From Caldifarciminota bacterium (lineage in GTDB: Bacteria > Hydrothermota > Hydrothermia > LBFQ01), in contig JALWYV010000044.1 in NCBI GenBank assembly GCA_027003075.1, positions 1-45,866 on the forward strand: DNA of 45,866 nucleotides. Direction: 5' to 3'. The notes beneath the pieces are model-generated. The model saw only the letters and a list, made by a program, of their open reading frames with translations. It had not been told where the DNA came from and did not search any database. Of this stretch, positions 21,344-45,400 are shown one piece after another. Made by a program: the position numbers and the translations under genes. Every line of letters begins with the position of its first letter. The stretch's first letter is position 1.

Positions 21344-22123
21344 CTACCGGGTCTCCTTCCACCTCTTTACCTTCTCAGGTTTTTCCTTCAGGAAAGACGC
21401 GGGGTAGGAGGTCTCGTACGTGTAGAGGGCGGCGGGGGAAGGGATGGAGAGTAGTATCTCAAGGAGGCCGTCCCCATCGTAATCCATGGCGACCAGGGAG
21501 AAGTACCCGGATGCCGTACGTGAAGGGGAGGTGTACACGAGGTCGGTGAAGTTCTCGTACACCTCAAAGTAGACCGTACCGGAGGTGGTCAGATAACCCA
21601 GAAGGATCCTGCCATCTCCCATGGGGAAACCCGTCCACATGCTCGCACTGGTGGGTTTGTAGTAGGTGACCAGCTTTACCGTCGGGTCGCTGCCGTCGTA
21701 TATCTCAACGGAGTCCCCGTAGTAGATCAGGATCTCGCGCACTCCGTCCCCCGTGAGATCATCGAAGTCGTAGACGTCGGCGGATACGGGCCCCCCGGTG
21801 TAATCTAAGGTCAGGTTGTCGTAAACCTCGTACTCGTACCCCGAAGGGACGGTATAGATCACGAGTAGCCTGCTGGACGACAGGGGGTAGTGATGGGTGG
21901 GGTAGCGGGAGGAGGTGCCGTCAAAGACGGCAAGGGGGGTGTTGGACACACCGTCGTACACGACCACGGAGTCCGTATAGGTACGCCCCGCATCGGCGTA
22001 GTAAATCACGGCGTCTTTAACGCCATCGCCGTTGAGATCCTCGTTTACGCCCGTGTATCCCAACAGGACGTTGGGATAGGTGCCGTGGGCAACCATGGAG
22101 ATCTGAGAAAGTACAAACAGCAT
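21344..22123 (-). CDS. Secreted FG-GAP/VCBS-like repeat protein, no sorting tail
   Basis: A 259-residue protein with a short signal peptide (MLFVLSQISMVAHG). Three Asp-rich loops of the calcium-binding FG-GAP/VCBS type recur at about 80-100-residue intervals: NEDLNGDGVKDAVIYY, FDDLTGDGVREILIYY and MDYDGDGLLEILLS. This suggests part of a beta-propeller. It is a shorter sister of the upstream gene but lacks that gene's C-terminal sorting-like tail, ending in a basic EKPEKVKRWKETR. GGAGGTGA before the ATG marks it as a downstream operon gene. Confidence 0.75.
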   Translation of the reverse strand: MLFVLSQISMVAHGTYPNVLLGYTGVNEDLNGDGVKDAVIYYADAGRTYTDSVVVYDGVSNTPLAVFDGTSSRYPTHHYPLSSSRLLVIYTVPSGYEYEVYDNLTLDYTGGPVSADVYDFDDLTGDGVREILIYYGDSVEIYDGSDPTVKLVTYYKPTSASMWTGFPMGDGRILLGYLTTSGTVYFEVYENFTDLVYTSPSRTASGYFSLVAMDYDGDGLLEILLSIPSPAALYTYETSYPASFLKEKPEKVKRWKETR

Positions 22124-22134
22124 CTTTCACCTCC

Positions 22135-23076
22135 TTACTTTAAGATGACCATCTTTCCGGATAGGGTCCTATCCCCTCTGTGGAGCGTGTAGAAGTAAAC
22201 ACCGGCGGGGAGGTTGAGGCGTACCCTGCTCTCCCTCACCCGTAAGGTGGCCACGGTCCTACCGGAAACGTCCATAACCTTGAGCGTAGCCCCGACAAGT
22301 CCCTCGTCCAATTTCAGGGTGCCGTTCTTTACGAGGCTTGGCAGTACGGTCTCGGTCTCCTTCTTCCTCTCGGAGACGCCAAGGAAGTTGGTTGAGAAGA
22401 CGTAGAAGTCCGCCGTCCACGAAGAGCTTACGGTGCCGAGGAGTATGTCGGCGTAGTCGTCGTTGTCGTACAGGAAGGGCATAACGTCCGACGTGATGGC
22501 GTAGGGATAGGCGGATGAGGTATAGACGAGGTTCGTGGCGTTGCTGTACACCTTGAAGGAGACGTTCCCGGAGTTATGAGCGAAGACCAGAACGTTCCCC
22601 GGCGTTATGAGTCTCATCTTACCCTCGTACGCCCTTATGAGGCCGTAGGGTGCGGCTCCGCTGTAGAGGTAGGTGGTGTCGTATATACCGTCGTACACGG
22701 TGACGTCCGCGTTCCCGTCCCCGTCGGCATCCCCTATGGCCTGCACCATGGAGTAAAGGTGGGAGGGGGACGTATATTCCACGGTCGTGAAGCCGGAGTA
22801 TATCTTGAAGAGGTAGTTTCCGGACGGATCGGAGTACGACACTGCTATCCTGCCTCCGGACAGGGGAAAGGCGTTCGTTGGACTGTACGTACCATCGGGG
22901 CCGTAGACTCCGAGCAGAGTCGTTGAGACCCCATCGTGTATCTTTATGCTATCGGAGGACTGCTCAACGGCGTCAAGGACACCGTCCCCGTTGTAGTCCC
23001 ACTCCATCCAGATGCTCCAGCCGGAAGGTGAGACCACGCTATCGCCAGGCGTAATCTGCGCCAATATCCATAACAT
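22135..23076 (-). CDS. Secreted FG-GAP/VCBS-like repeat protein with a type IX-like sorting tail
   Basis: A 313-residue protein with a signal peptide (MLWILAQI). Asp-rich loops EWDYNGDGVLDAVEQ, IGDADGDGNADVTVYD and YDNDDYADILLG mark FG-GAP/VCBS repeats. The last 65 residues (KVMDVSGRTVATLRV ... LPAGVYFYTLHRG ... GKMVILK) match the C-terminal sorting domains of FCB bacteria, suggesting attachment at or export to the cell surface. TAGAAT lies nine bases before the ATG; a GGAGGT also lies between them, so this start may work in either mode. Confidence 0.8.
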   Translation of the reverse strand: MLWILAQITPGDSVVSPSGWSIWMEWDYNGDGVLDAVEQSSDSIKIHDGVSTTLLGVYGPDGTYSPTNAFPLSGGRIAVSYSDPSGNYLFKIYSGFTTVEYTSPSHLYSMVQAIGDADGDGNADVTVYDGIYDTTYLYSGAAPYGLIRAYEGKMRLITPGNVLVFAHNSGNVSFKVYSNATNLVYTSSAYPYAITSDVMPFLYDNDDYADILLGTVSSSWTADFYVFSTNFLGVSERKKETETVLPSLVKNGTLKLDEGLVGATLKVMDVSGRTVATLRVRESRVRLNLPAGVYFYTLHRGDRTLSGKMVILK

Positions 23077-23085
23077 GACCTCCGT

Positions 23086-23091
23086 ATTCTA
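23086..23091 (-). promoter_or_regulatory. Candidate -10 element of the FG-GAP gene pair (TAGAAT)
   Basis: TAGAAT on the minus strand, nine bases before the ATG at 23076. A GGAGGT lies between the hexamer and the start. Confidence 0.5.
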
Positions 23092-23126
23092 ACACGCCGT
23101 GGGGCGAATTTCAAGTGGGACAGGAT

Positions 23127-24335
23127 TTACCTTACTTTCCGTCCCGATGGGTCGTATTTACCCCTGAGGATTATCCTGCGGCCTATAACCGCGTTGGCTG
23201 TGGTCCCATCACTGCGTAAAACTTCCCTTTGAGCCTCCTCAACACCCACGGGGGAGAGACTCCTGACGTAGAAGATACGGGGGAAGGAGGAGCCGTAGGA
23301 TCTGTCCACGTAGGTCAGATGTACGTACCCCTCCCCGTCCACAAAGACCGTCGGCCTTCCCTGAGGGCCGTTCTGGTGTATCCGGAAGGTGTCCCTTAAG
23401 GATAGATCACTCCGCAGGACGGCGCCGACCACATCGCTATCGTAGGCGTCGTAATCCTCCCTCCAGACCACGACGAACCCGCTGCCGAAGGGGAATACGG
23501 CCGGTTCCTTCTGGGGGTTTCCCGTGGGGAAGACCGGACGGGGCAGGCTCCAGACCGTATCCCTTTCCACGATATACACGTCCCCACTCCCGTCCTGCCA
23601 TACCACCACGTACTTCCCGTGGCCGTAAGCCGCATCCGGATAGTAGCCCGTCCTTCCGGAGATAGGAAAGTCGGAGGTTCCGAAATTTCCGAATATCTCG
23701 TAACCGCCGTTACGGTTGTCCGCCCACACGTACAGGACGCTGTCCGGACCCGGGGCGAAGGCCGGGTACCACGCGTTCCCCGGTGAGTCGCTCACCCTCA
23801 CATCCGGTTCCCAGCCGGACGGCCCCCGCACCTTGGTGTAGATCTCGGCGTCGTAGGCCATGGGATCGTCCCGGTAGTCGTACCACACCACCCGCAGGGT
23901 CCCGTCCCCCTGAACCTTCATCGCCGGCACGTATCCGTTATCCCCCGGACTTCCCGACGAGGTGTAGGTAAGCCTCTCCTCGTTGGGCCAGGTGTCCCCG
24001 TAAACGGGTTTGGAGTTGAAGAATAGTTCAACGTTGGATATACCCCCAACCCTGTAGTCGTGCCACACCAGAAAGACGCTGTCCCTTGCGACCACCACGG
24101 CCGGATACTTGGCGTCGGCCGTGTCCGTAAATACGACCCTTTCCTCCGGAAGCCACCCGCTTCCGTCCCTCATCCTGTAGAAGACCTGCCACGTACCCCC
24201 AACCTTCCTGTGATAGGCCACGTGTACCCTCCCGGCGATGTCCACGAACAGGGACGTATGGTTGAGTCCGCTTTCACACGTGGTATCGCACACCAGCTCA
24301 GGAGTCCCGAAGTTCAGGGAGATGAGGATAAGCAT
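23127..24335 (-). CDS. Secreted sialidase-like beta-propeller protein with a shortened sorting tail
   Basis: A 402-residue protein starting with a short hydrophobic signal-like stretch. Repeats such as GRVHVAYHRKVGGTWQVFY, DSVFLVWHDYRVGG, GTLRVVWYDYRDD and GKYVVVWQDGSG resemble the blades of sialidase/BNR-type propellers. Catalytic residues of a sialidase cannot be assigned. It ends in VEEAQREV ... YDPSGRKVR, which looks like the first part of the sorting-like tail of its neighbours, cut off before the G-V/I-Y-F part. TATAAT lies eight bases before the ATG. Confidence 0.7.
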   Translation of the reverse strand: MLILISLNFGTPELVCDTTCESGLNHTSLFVDIAGRVHVAYHRKVGGTWQVFYRMRDGSGWLPEERVVFTDTADAKYPAVVVARDSVFLVWHDYRVGGISNVELFFNSKPVYGDTWPNEERLTYTSSGSPGDNGYVPAMKVQGDGTLRVVWYDYRDDPMAYDAEIYTKVRGPSGWEPDVRVSDSPGNAWYPAFAPGPDSVLYVWADNRNGGYEIFGNFGTSDFPISGRTGYYPDAAYGHGKYVVVWQDGSGDVYIVERDTVWSLPRPVFPTGNPQKEPAVFPFGSGFVVVWREDYDAYDSDVVGAVLRSDLSLRDTFRIHQNGPQGRPTVFVDGEGYVHLTYVDRSYGSSFPRIFYVRSLSPVGVEEAQREVLRSDGTTANAVIGRRIILRGKYDPSGRKVR

Positions 24336-42022: not shown

Positions 42023-42043
42023 AGGGAGAACAAAAGGCAACCT

Positions 42044-42049
42044 TAAAAT
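42044..42049 (+). promoter_or_regulatory. Candidate -10 element of the A-B-B'-A' cluster (TAAAAT)
   Basis: TAAAAT eight bases before the ATG at 42058. It is the only candidate promoter I see for the four-gene cluster. Confidence 0.5.
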
Positions 42050-42057
42050 GCACTTTC

Positions 42058-43026
42058 ATGCTCTACCTTATAACCGATCTCTCTTTTGTGGGCTATACCG
42101 CCGGAAACTGGTGGTTTTACGACGTGTGGGAGGAGAACTTCGTCCTGCACTACGAGATCGTGGATTCGGTGGTAGGAAACGACACGTGGGACGGAAGCGG
42201 CAGTAGATGTTCTTTCTCCTCCCCCGTTGATAGGGCCACGTTCCACATGTGGACTTACATGTCGGTTTATATGGACGTCACCTACGCCTATTACGACGGG
42301 ACCTATCTGGTAGACCTTGTGGAATCAACCAGACATTCGCCTTTCCTCGGCGTTGGGATAAGGACGCTCAAGTTCCCTCTAACGGTAGGAGATACGTGGC
42401 AGGCCATAGACACGTGCATATACGCCCTCGGCCAGAGGATACCCCATCCCAACGGCAGTATAGACGATGACACCATCGTGGATACCCTCTGGTACGACAC
42501 CTCGTACGCGTATCTGGAATCCTACACGGGAGACACCATAATCGTGCGATTTTCTCCCATAAAGGTCTACGAGAAGGCGACCTTCACTATCCCCTACGGA
42601 GATACGGCGTTCTTGTGCTGTATAAACAACTACCGCTACATCTACGGCTACATCAAGTACGTCGTAGGCTTCGGCATGTACAAACTCCAGATGGATAGCA
42701 TGGTCCTTTACCAATCGTGGGGGATAGTGGACACGACGTCCACACCGTGGGATACGACCTTCTTCCCTCCGACCTATATGCTTACGACCCCCTACTACGC
42801 CGTGTGGACCTACGTACCGGTGGGTATTTCGGAGAAACCTATAAGAGGTCGGCATTCATCGTTCGGTATAAATGGGAGGGTTCTGACCGTTACGGACGAT
42901 ACGGAGGTTTACTCCATAGACGGTCGCCTCGTGAAGCGCCTGAGGGCAGGGGATAGCTTCCGCCTTAGACCGGGGATCTACTTCATACGCTTTAAAGGTA
43001 CTATCCGTAAGGTGGTGGTACGATGA
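42058..43026 (+). CDS. Secreted protein A with a type IX-like sorting tail
   Basis: A 322-residue protein with a short hydrophobic start (MLYLITDLSFVGYTAG), perhaps a signal peptide. Four Cys are shared with its paralogue at 44422: SGSRC, IDTC and FLCC. The central stretch GIRTLKFPLTVGDTWQAIDT through VDTLWYDTSYAYLESYTGDT is the best conserved part. The end (VYSIDGRLVKRL ... RPGIYFIRFKG ... RKVVVR) fits the C-terminal sorting tails of FCB-type secreted proteins. Family not recognised. It is the first gene of the A-B-B'-A' cluster. Confidence 0.7.
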   Translation: MLYLITDLSFVGYTAGNWWFYDVWEENFVLHYEIVDSVVGNDTWDGSGSRCSFSSPVDRATFHMWTYMSVYMDVTYAYYDGTYLVDLVESTRHSPFLGVGIRTLKFPLTVGDTWQAIDTCIYALGQRIPHPNGSIDDDTIVDTLWYDTSYAYLESYTGDTIIVRFSPIKVYEKATFTIPYGDTAFLCCINNYRYIYGYIKYVVGFGMYKLQMDSMVLYQSWGIVDTTSTPWDTTFFPPTYMLTTPYYAVWTYVPVGISEKPIRGRHSSFGINGRVLTVTDDTEVYSIDGRLVKRLRAGDSFRLRPGIYFIRFKGTIRKVVVR

Positions 43027-43730
43027 AACGACTCCTGAAACTCTCCCTGCTCACCCTAACCTTTGTCTTTCTAATAGGGGGTAGGTGTGGCTCCGAGTGC
43101 GAATGTTCCTGTTCCCCTCAGGAAGTCAGCACCTACGCCTTGGATAGGGGACGCTACCTTGAAGCGACGTGGTGTTCCCCCGAAGAAGGAGAGTTCGTCA
43201 CGGATACCTTCCATGAGATCGCCTCCGAAATAACCGTAGGGAACGAAAGTTGCAACATAACCCTGCTTTACAGTCCTACGGTCGGCGATACCCTCGTATG
43301 TGCCTCGGACACCTGTGCCAACGTGGTCGGTCTGGACGTCTTCCATCCCATACACCTTTACGGCGAGGGGGATACCCTTCCGGGAGACGGCTTCTACCTG
43401 AAGGTGGTACGGATGGACACGTCAATCTACCTGATAGGGCTTGAATACGGGAACGGCAGGGTGCATATCTCCCCCGACCTCTACAACGATTTGGCCCCGG
43501 ACACTGGAGGGTACTCCGACACCGTAAGGGCTTTGGTTCCGACGGACCCGTCCTACGGCCACGCCCTGTGGTTAGACAGAGGGGACAGGGACATAAACTT
43601 CGTAGCCCCGGGCGACATCTTCGGCAAGATAACCGTCTTAGGAGTCAGTGGGGACAGCGTCAGGATAAGGGTACTCTACAGGTTTACGCCCTTCAACGTA
43701 CCGGGGTTAAGGTGGATAAAGGGAGGATAA
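43023..43730 (+). CDS. Secreted Cys-rich protein B
   Basis: A 235-residue protein with a signal peptide (KRLLKLSLLTLTFVFLIGG). The mature N-terminus is Cys-rich (RCGSECECSCSP); -1 of the first Cys is Arg, so a true lipobox is unlikely. Later landmarks are TLVCASDTCANVVG, GEGDTLPGDGFYLKVVRMDT, YGHALWLDRG and the end VPGLRWIKGG, all shared with the next gene. The cysteines could form disulfides or hold a metal. The start overlaps the previous stop as ATGA. No family recognised. Confidence 0.65.
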   Translation: MKRLLKLSLLTLTFVFLIGGRCGSECECSCSPQEVSTYALDRGRYLEATWCSPEEGEFVTDTFHEIASEITVGNESCNITLLYSPTVGDTLVCASDTCANVVGLDVFHPIHLYGEGDTLPGDGFYLKVVRMDTSIYLIGLEYGNGRVHISPDLYNDLAPDTGGYSDTVRALVPTDPSYGHALWLDRGDRDINFVAPGDIFGKITVLGVSGDSVRIRVLYRFTPFNVPGLRWIKGG

Positions 43731-43734
43731 CGTT

Positions 43735-44418
43735 ATGAAAAAGGCTTTACGTATTCTCTTAATGCTCCTGACCGTCTGGCTCATGATGGGGTTCAAGTGC
43801 AACGTCTGCGAATGTGAGAATAGGGAGATAAACCTACGGGCCATAGAGCGGGGGGCGAAACTTGAGGTTGAATGCTGCCTGCCGGGTGAGGAGACTTGGA
43901 CCGACACGTTCGCCGAGCCGAAGAGGGAGCTGTACGTGGAGAGGTGCGGCCATGCCCTGCCATCGCCGGAGGTTGAAGACGTCAGGACCTGCCTATCGTC
44001 CGGATGCAGGAACGTCCTTATGCTAAGCGAAGGCCTCCCCATCCAGCTCTACGAGGAGGGGGACACCCTGCCGGACGAGGGCTTCTACCTGAAGGTGGTC
44101 AGAATTGACACGTTAATCTACCTCATGGGGCTTAACCGTGGAGACAGGAGGGTTTACATCTCTCCCACACTGCACGAAGGCCTCGCCCCGGATACGGGGG
44201 ATTATGCGGATACCGTTATCGCCACGGTGCCGGCCGATTCCTCCTACGGTCATGCCATCTGGATGGACAGAGGCTCACCGGATATAGACACCCTCCCCTA
44301 CGCCCCCGGAGATTTCTTCGGTAAGGTGAGGGTTATGGAGGTCTGGGGGGACAGCGTACGCCTGAAGGTGGGCTACAGGTTCAAGGTCCCTGGCCTCAGG
44401 TGGATAAAGGGAGGTTAG
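43735..44418 (+). CDS. Secreted Cys-rich protein B', paralogue of B
   Basis: A 227-residue paralogue of the preceding gene. Signal peptide KKALRILLMLLTVWLMMG, then KCNVCECE. It shares EEGDTLPDEGFYLKVVRIDT, YGHAIWMDRG and the identical ending VPGLRWIKGG with B. The middle is more diverged (ECCLPGEETWTDTFAEPK). It starts four bases after the B stop and ends three bases before A', so all four genes are probably one transcript. Function unknown. Confidence 0.65.
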   Translation: MKKALRILLMLLTVWLMMGFKCNVCECENREINLRAIERGAKLEVECCLPGEETWTDTFAEPKRELYVERCGHALPSPEVEDVRTCLSSGCRNVLMLSEGLPIQLYEEGDTLPDEGFYLKVVRIDTLIYLMGLNRGDRRVYISPTLHEGLAPDTGDYADTVIATVPADSSYGHAIWMDRGSPDIDTLPYAPGDFFGKVRVMEVWGDSVRLKVGYRFKVPGLRWIKGG

Positions 44419-44421
44419 GCT

Positions 44422-45387
44422 ATGGTCCTGCTCTTAGGTTCGCTCTCCTTTGTGGGGTACGATGCCGGGAAAGGCTGGTTGTACGATTACGTGGTGGAGG
44501 ACTCCATACACTACCTTTACCTGTACGACACCCTCCTGAGCGTCGGAGCATGGGACGGCTCGGGAAGCCGTTGTACATTCTCACCGTCGGTTGACAGGGC
44601 GCTTATGGTCTTTTCCGATTACCCTATGTCCTACCTTCCGGACAGTGCCTTCGCGTACTACGATGGTACGTATCTGGTGGACCTCGTGGGTGTTGCCACG
44701 TATTCCCCCTTCTACGGCGCCGGAATAAGGACTCTCAAGTTCCCTATCACTGTCGGCGATACGTGGCAGGCGATAGACACGTGCATATACGCCTTAGGTC
44801 AAAAGGTACCTCACCCCCAAGGGAGCATAGACGAGGATACCCTCGTGGATACCCTCTGGTACGATACCTCCTACGCATCTTTGGAATCCTACACCGGGGA
44901 TACCATAACCGTGGCCTTCGCTCCGATAAATATGGTTGAAAAGCTCACAGCCCTACAGGTATGGGACGACACCACTTACCTGTGTTGCCGTACGTACTAC
45001 CATCAGCTCTACGGAAAGGTGATATACATCGCCGGGATGGGGATGTACGGCCTCCGTATAGACAGCGCGGTCGTGGATATAGCCTACGGCCTGATAAACA
45101 CCAACACGTGGGACACCACGTTCGTGCCGAGGACCTACCTCCAGACCGTTTACTCTCCTCTCAGGTGGGATTACGTAAGTACGGATGTAGCAGAGAGACC
45201 TTCTAAGGAAGGGTATCCGGCAGTTGATGTGTACGGTCGTACCCTAAAGGTACGGAGAGATGCCCTCGTGTACGCCGCGGACGGGCGCTTACTCTTCAGG
45301 CTCGGTCCTGGGGCGTCCGTTTCACTTCAACCGGGGGTGTACTTCGTTAAGACCCCTGCAGGGGTGAGGAAGGTGGTAATACGTTAG
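44422..45387 (+). CDS. Secreted protein A', paralogue of A, with a type IX-like sorting tail
   Basis: A 321-residue paralogue of the first gene of the cluster, matching it in length and in its four Cys positions (SGSRC, IDTC, YLCC). The block GIRTLKFPITVGDTWQAIDT through LVDTLWYDTSYASLESYTGD is nearly the same in both, while the flanks differ, which hints at gene conversion or strong constraint on the core. The tail VYAADGRLLFRL ... QPGVYFVKTPAG ... RKVVIR is again sorting-like. It ends the A-B-B'-A' order. Confidence 0.7.
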   Translation: MVLLLGSLSFVGYDAGKGWLYDYVVEDSIHYLYLYDTLLSVGAWDGSGSRCTFSPSVDRALMVFSDYPMSYLPDSAFAYYDGTYLVDLVGVATYSPFYGAGIRTLKFPITVGDTWQAIDTCIYALGQKVPHPQGSIDEDTLVDTLWYDTSYASLESYTGDTITVAFAPINMVEKLTALQVWDDTTYLCCRTYYHQLYGKVIYIAGMGMYGLRIDSAVVDIAYGLINTNTWDTTFVPRTYLQTVYSPLRWDYVSTDVAERPSKEGYPAVDVYGRTLKVRRDALVYAADGRLLFRLGPGASVSLQPGVYFVKTPAGVRKVVIR

Positions 45388-45400
45388 GCCTCTCCGGGAG

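Follow-up and report, generated by a model that had tools for sequence, protein, structure and literature searches.

A cluster of probable cargo and putative partner genes

Four consecutive genes in the window (the whole stretch of 45,866 nucleotides that was analysed) probably form an operon of T9SS cargo proteins (A1 and A2) and exported envelope proteins (B1 and B2). In the reading favoured here the operon derives from a B-A module found widely in a WOR-3 family, a module that was duplicated, converted and shuffled, with the mirror order A-B-B'-A' as a by-product. The named relatives of the host MAG are labelled candidate division WOR-3 or Thermotogota. The initial annotation had described the cluster as lying at 42058-45387, entirely on the plus strand and with gaps of at most 4 bases, and all four frames are present as described:

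42058-43026, plus strand: A1, open frame of 322 aa; predicted exported protein with a T9SS-type C-terminal domain, outside known families
43023-43730, plus strand: B1, open frame of 235 aa; predicted Cys-rich exported protein with a signal-like N terminus and the non-canonical lipobox GGRC
43735-44418, plus strand: B2 (B'), open frame of 227 aa; paralogue of B1 with the non-canonical lipobox GFKC
44422-45387, plus strand: A2 (A'), open frame of 321 aa; paralogue of A1

A1 and B1 overlap by 4 bases (ATGA, -4), B1 and B2 are separated by a 4-base gap (CGTT) and B2 and A2 by a 3-base gap (GCT). A sigma-70 promoter scan of the cluster region found none. The proposed paralogy of A with A' and of B with B' was borne out over the full length of the proteins and lies far above chance or low complexity, with 52% identity over 323 columns for A1 versus A2 (E 3e-116) and 53% over 237 columns for B1 versus B2 (E 3e-76).

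It is very unlikely that the cluster is an assembly artefact that fuses separate loci. Although the MAG consists of 62 contigs with an estimated contamination of 3.9%, related loci sit at contig edges, and the left edge and the A1-B1 join (which has no counterpart in another genome) lack support from a second genome, the B1-B2 junction is also present in G006, the B2-A2 spacer TAGGCTATG recurs in G004:C17, A1 and A2 adjoin in G003 too, and the ATGA coding overlap is unbroken.

The A proteins carry T9SS-type sorting domains

Sorting-like tails had been noted on A and A' and as absent from B and B'. The restriction of such tails to A is borne out and, judged from both profile and fold, the A tail is of a genuine T9SS type:

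42859..43023, plus strand: A1 C-terminal sorting domain; 17.3 bits against TIGR04183, under the cut-off; family profile matches the RgpB CTD
45220..45384, plus strand: A2 C-terminal sorting domain; predicted fold that of the RgpB CTD (7pq4, prob 1.00, TM 0.55 of target)

With a TIGR04183 cut-off of 23 bits, the A1 tail by itself is a weak match. A profile of 13 A proteins matched the RgpB CTD in hmmsearch (5ag9, E 0.0033; 7pq4, E 0.0072), and the predicted A2 model (pLDDT 81) retrieved solved RgpB CTDs in Foldseek (7pq4, prob 1.00; 5hfs, 0.98), so that the C-terminal Ig-like sorting domain of T9SS cargo was found in A by two routes. The host genome holds approximately 79 matches to TIGR04183-type tails, 43 of them above the cut-off, and the translocon was recognised by an SprA_N domain, likewise above its cut-off, in a frame of 1856 aa (E 1.6e-16). 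Together with the RgpB CTD matches, these tails and the SprA_N protein make A very likely a T9SS cargo. The nearest known system is the gingipain RgpB-type cargo with a type A CTD of the Bacteroidota T9SS: A likewise ends in an RgpB-like CTD by profile and fold, and the likeness extends to the SprA_N protein and the many tails of the host. A differs from such cargo in its WOR-3 host, in CTD scores under the curated cut-off, in an N terminus far shorter than the usual signal peptide and in a cargo domain that belongs to no known family. An open-access literature search found no paper combining the terms T9SS and WOR-3, and the present data point to a repertoire of T9SS-type cargo beyond the Bacteroidota, in a candidate phylum of hot environments.

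Searches with A against Pfam and NCBIfam returned no family above cut-off. A fold match of the A body to 4fvs (prob 0.90) was weak and was not used for function. At the N terminus of the A proteins lies a short run of some 6-12 hydrophobic, uncharged residues (MLYLITDLSFVG, MIILVSSLSFAG), which was observed at window positions 42058 and 44422 and in the A genes of loci L030, L031 and L075-L092. This stretch is shorter than a usual Sec signal peptide, and its unusual shortness and lack of charge count against regarding Sec export of A as established; other secreted proteins of the host genome are similar. Most A genes have a strong ribosome-binding site directly 5' of the start, and in A2 an in-frame TAG lies 3 bases 5' of the ATG. 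Elsewhere in the window (21344-24335, minus strand), secreted repeat proteins (FG-GAP, BNR-like) with the same short N termini are encoded by three successive genes; one of them has a weak sorting tail.

The B family

Most members of the B family are predicted lipoproteins, with a canonical lipobox in most paralogues (e.g. LSGC, LTGC, GTGC). In the window B1 and B2 a Cys aligns at the lipobox position of the paralogues, but Arg (GGRC) or Lys (GFKC) precedes it where the lipobox has G, A or S, and these two proteins therefore fail the lipobox test for a lipoprotein. Both match the B-family profile over most of their length (E 1.8e-68 and 5e-64, with both in the seed alignment) at 22% identity to the other seeds. 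Neither Pfam nor NCBIfam holds a family that B matches above cut-off, and a PDB sequence search with B gave no match. The top Foldseek match of the B2 model was the DUF4466 fold (4ei0, Parabacteroides merdae; prob 1.00), which at a TM-score of 0.31-0.42, 6% identity and E 0.007 is a lead only and was too weak to be used for function. In general kind, B resembles the envelope lipoproteins of operons that also encode a secreted partner, as its members mostly have a lipobox and are encoded directly upstream of the secreted protein; it differs in that no sequence relation to a named pair was found and that window B1 and B2 have no canonical lipobox.

Distribution and gene order in relatives

Full-length A is confined to one WOR-3 family; beyond it, two genomes from the same order gave profile fragments only. 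B-type proteins are spread more widely, being present in 38 of the phylum's 147 genomes. A search for A/B pairs in other genomes established, at the level of gene neighbourhood, that the two families co-occur: a B homologue lies directly upstream of 18 of the 23 A genes with a visible upstream side, in 6 genomes. Three more (G005:C40, G005:C41 and G006:C79) follow an exported Cys-bearing protein of similar size, which was not accepted as a B homologue (hhalign 67.6%, with the alignment mostly over the signal region). The two A genes without an upstream B are A1 of the window and the second A of G003. The usual orders in the family are B-A, B-B-A and C-B-A; B-A-C-B-B-A and B-A1-A2 occur as well, and B-B-A is the order at both remaining main loci in the window's genome. 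B before A, with coupling, is consistent across two genera. The mirror order was found in the window only and is absent from all other loci of the 8 genomes, and a B-B' pair without A is present in G006 and G007. The distances among A and among B proteins correlate (Mantel r 0.55, reached in 0 of 5000 permutations), partly because related loci share both genes.

Gene C, which lies upstream of B-A at loci L078, L084, L085, L087 and L090, encodes a predicted secreted protein of 700-760 aa with a sorting tail; its copies have a VVVPIEVPPDI-like start in common and belong to no Pfam family.

The shared B ending contains the next ribosome-binding site

The identical ending of B and B' noted at the outset is real, as both terminate in GLRWIKGG, but it is not specific to the pair: the same residues close the B genes in G003, G004 and G006. 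The codons of this ending (ATAAAGGGAGG) hold a GGAGG that is correctly spaced from the next start:

43714..43730, plus strand: B1 3' end (ATAAAGGGAGGATAA); codes for IKGG and contains the GGAGG ribosome-binding site of B2
44402..44418, plus strand: B2 3' end (ATAAAGGGAGGTTAG); codes for IKGG and contains the ribosome-binding site of A2, with the GCT spacer before A2 the same in G004:C17

At other loci, too, GGAGG falls within the last codons of the upstream gene, using other residues. Since B genes elsewhere share it and the GGAGG for the downstream gene lies within it, the ending was discarded as evidence for conversion between B and B'; shared ancestry and its use as the ribosome-binding site of the following gene explain it.

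Old paralogues with a converted core

A near-identical core inside diverged flanks had been described for A and A', and codon-level comparison agrees. Residues ~100-164 (about 65 codons) show 80-95% amino acid identity per 20-codon block versus 20-70% elsewhere, and alignment of A with A' at the DNA level places a conversion tract in this core:

42355..42549, plus strand: A1 core, made alike to that of A2 by gene conversion; the edges of the tract are approximate
44722..44916, plus strand: A2 core, partner of the A1 conversion tract

By phylogeny, A1 and A2 prove to be old paralogues. A tree built from 22 A proteins places the window A2 in a clade with G3C5_A2 and G4C17 (100/97) that excludes both the window A1 and G3C5_A1, which implies that the split between A1 and A2 predates the divergence of these species. 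The orthologues of A1 and A2 are adjacent in G003 and follow a B gene whose two parts lie on separate contigs with a 73-base overlap. In AU tests the orthologue trees are rejected for the core (p 0.0002 and 0.01) and the paralogue tree for the flanks (p 0.0004), and informative sites divide 25:2 between the paralogue and orthologue groupings in the core and 35:60 elsewhere (Fisher p 1e-7). Since core sites group by genome and the AU results are opposite for core and flanks, the trees demonstrate homogenisation of the core by gene conversion, separately in two species, with flanks that keep their own ancestry. This makes the A genes a clear natural example of surface-protein genes converted in their core.

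That strong purifying selection rather than conversion keeps the cores alike is improbable. It would fit the synonymous codon identity of the two window genes, which is little raised in the core (30/51 versus ~50/109) and implies that any conversion in the window's genome is not recent. It does not fit the grouping of core sites by genome against the flanks, nor G003, where the core blocks are 88-97% identical at the DNA level versus 32-72% around them, nor the paralogues G0C54 and G0C8, which are only ~50% identical over the same columns. Codons ~121-160 of the B alignment may hold a conversion pattern similar to that of the A core. For B1 and B2 the AU tests favour no single tree relative to the B genes of other species, and they do not separate a tandem B1-A1-B2-A2 ancestor from a later duplication of B.

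Turnover of the genes at chromosomal sites

The closest genome, G005, has flanking DNA ~95% identical to that of the window, with the cassette replaced by 238 unrelated bases between edges that correspond to ~42026 and ~45393; the right edge follows the A2 stop by 5 bases. G006 has the B1-B2 pair on its own beside glmS with no adjacent A, and the homology starts 5 bases before the B1 start and ends 2 bases after the B2 stop:

42027..45392, no strand: stretch missing from G005 at the equivalent site, where 238 unrelated bases lie between the same flanks
43018..44420, plus strand: B1-B2 pair standing alone at another chromosomal site in G006, 89% identity

The 238-base filler has no convincing match within the family. 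The glmS genes of G000 and G005 lie elsewhere, without B1-B2. In the G006 pair (G006:C97) a deletion of 7 bases close to the 3' end disrupts the B2 orthologue (L095:1208-1886). Gene combinations at the sites after argS and after murG differ between genomes. In G006:C190 (L075:8500-9465), the gene G6C190b is 86% identical in its body to the orthologue G0C54 and 97% identical in its tail to the neighbour G6C190a. Alignment of these loci demonstrates that the cassette is present or absent at the window site, that the B1-B2 pair either moved or was lost differentially, and that a tail was swapped between A genes in G006.

More speculatively, the T9SS cargo and envelope-partner genes might be gene-sized cassettes that are exchanged among a small set of fixed positions in the chromosome (behind argS, behind murG, and flanked by an HMA gene and an F420-ligase gene). 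Their edges would lie at reading-frame ends, conversion would keep the cores alike and tails would be swapped; we regard such a surface-variation system without a dedicated recombinase as possible yet doubtful. Multigene families of surface proteins under concerted evolution likewise show tracts homogenised within a genome, swapped tails and turnover of copy number and site. The present genes differ from these in forming paired cargo/partner operons, and no phase-variation or recombinase gene was seen in the cassette.

Interpretation of the mirror order

The initial annotation had argued that the mirror order needs either separate duplications of A and B or selection. Separate duplications suffice, whereas selection found no backing, the order occurring at no other locus and the cassette being absent from G005. 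Selection for equal and symmetric production of a secreted 2A:2B assembly is accordingly quite improbable: the tight coupling of co-occurring A and B genes and the correlation of their distances would suit it, but the order was seen once in 8 genomes, the closest relative does without the cassette, G006 retains B-B' without A, and B:A gene ratios vary among 1:1, 2:1 and 1:2 across loci. These ratios also speak against a fixed 2A:2B assembly read from gene order, which is not supported. Of the broader interpretation, the secreted and paired nature of the families and conversion in the A core hold, and the gene order as a design and the B ending as conversion do not. By itself, an unusual gene order is a poor argument for a complex, and here the relatives and the empty site explain it.

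It is less easy to dismiss, though still unlikely, that A and B are mere neighbours in arrays of surface-protein genes, with no common function and a co-occurrence that stems from tandem origin and shared regulation. B-type proteins do stand alone in 38 of the phylum's 147 genomes, and G006 and G007 keep B-B' pairs without A; against this, A is almost never found without an upstream B, and the B-before-A order and its coupling hold across two genera. Co-occurrence, order, coupling and correlated divergence together mark B as a putative partner of A. Under the preferred reading of a duplicated B-A module, B would be translated just before A and coupled to it through its own 3' end. A would be exported by Sec and then cross the SprA pore, to be displayed at the cell surface or released from it, and B would stay in the envelope and help to place or anchor A. 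Conversion would preserve the common core while flanks and tails diversify, and the A-B-B'-A' order would reflect duplication, loss and rearrangement of module genes with no selected design. The two families appear to be undescribed ones that occur as a unit, of a general kind that is already known.

Two minor observations concern other sequences. Contigs C18/C46 and C15/C27 of G000 have identical tail matches with equal scores and are either recent duplicates or redundant assembly contig ends. Positions 364-2034 of the window (minus strand) encode three tandem overlapping paralogues of ~188 aa each, which we take to resemble Uma2-type nuclease-fold proteins.
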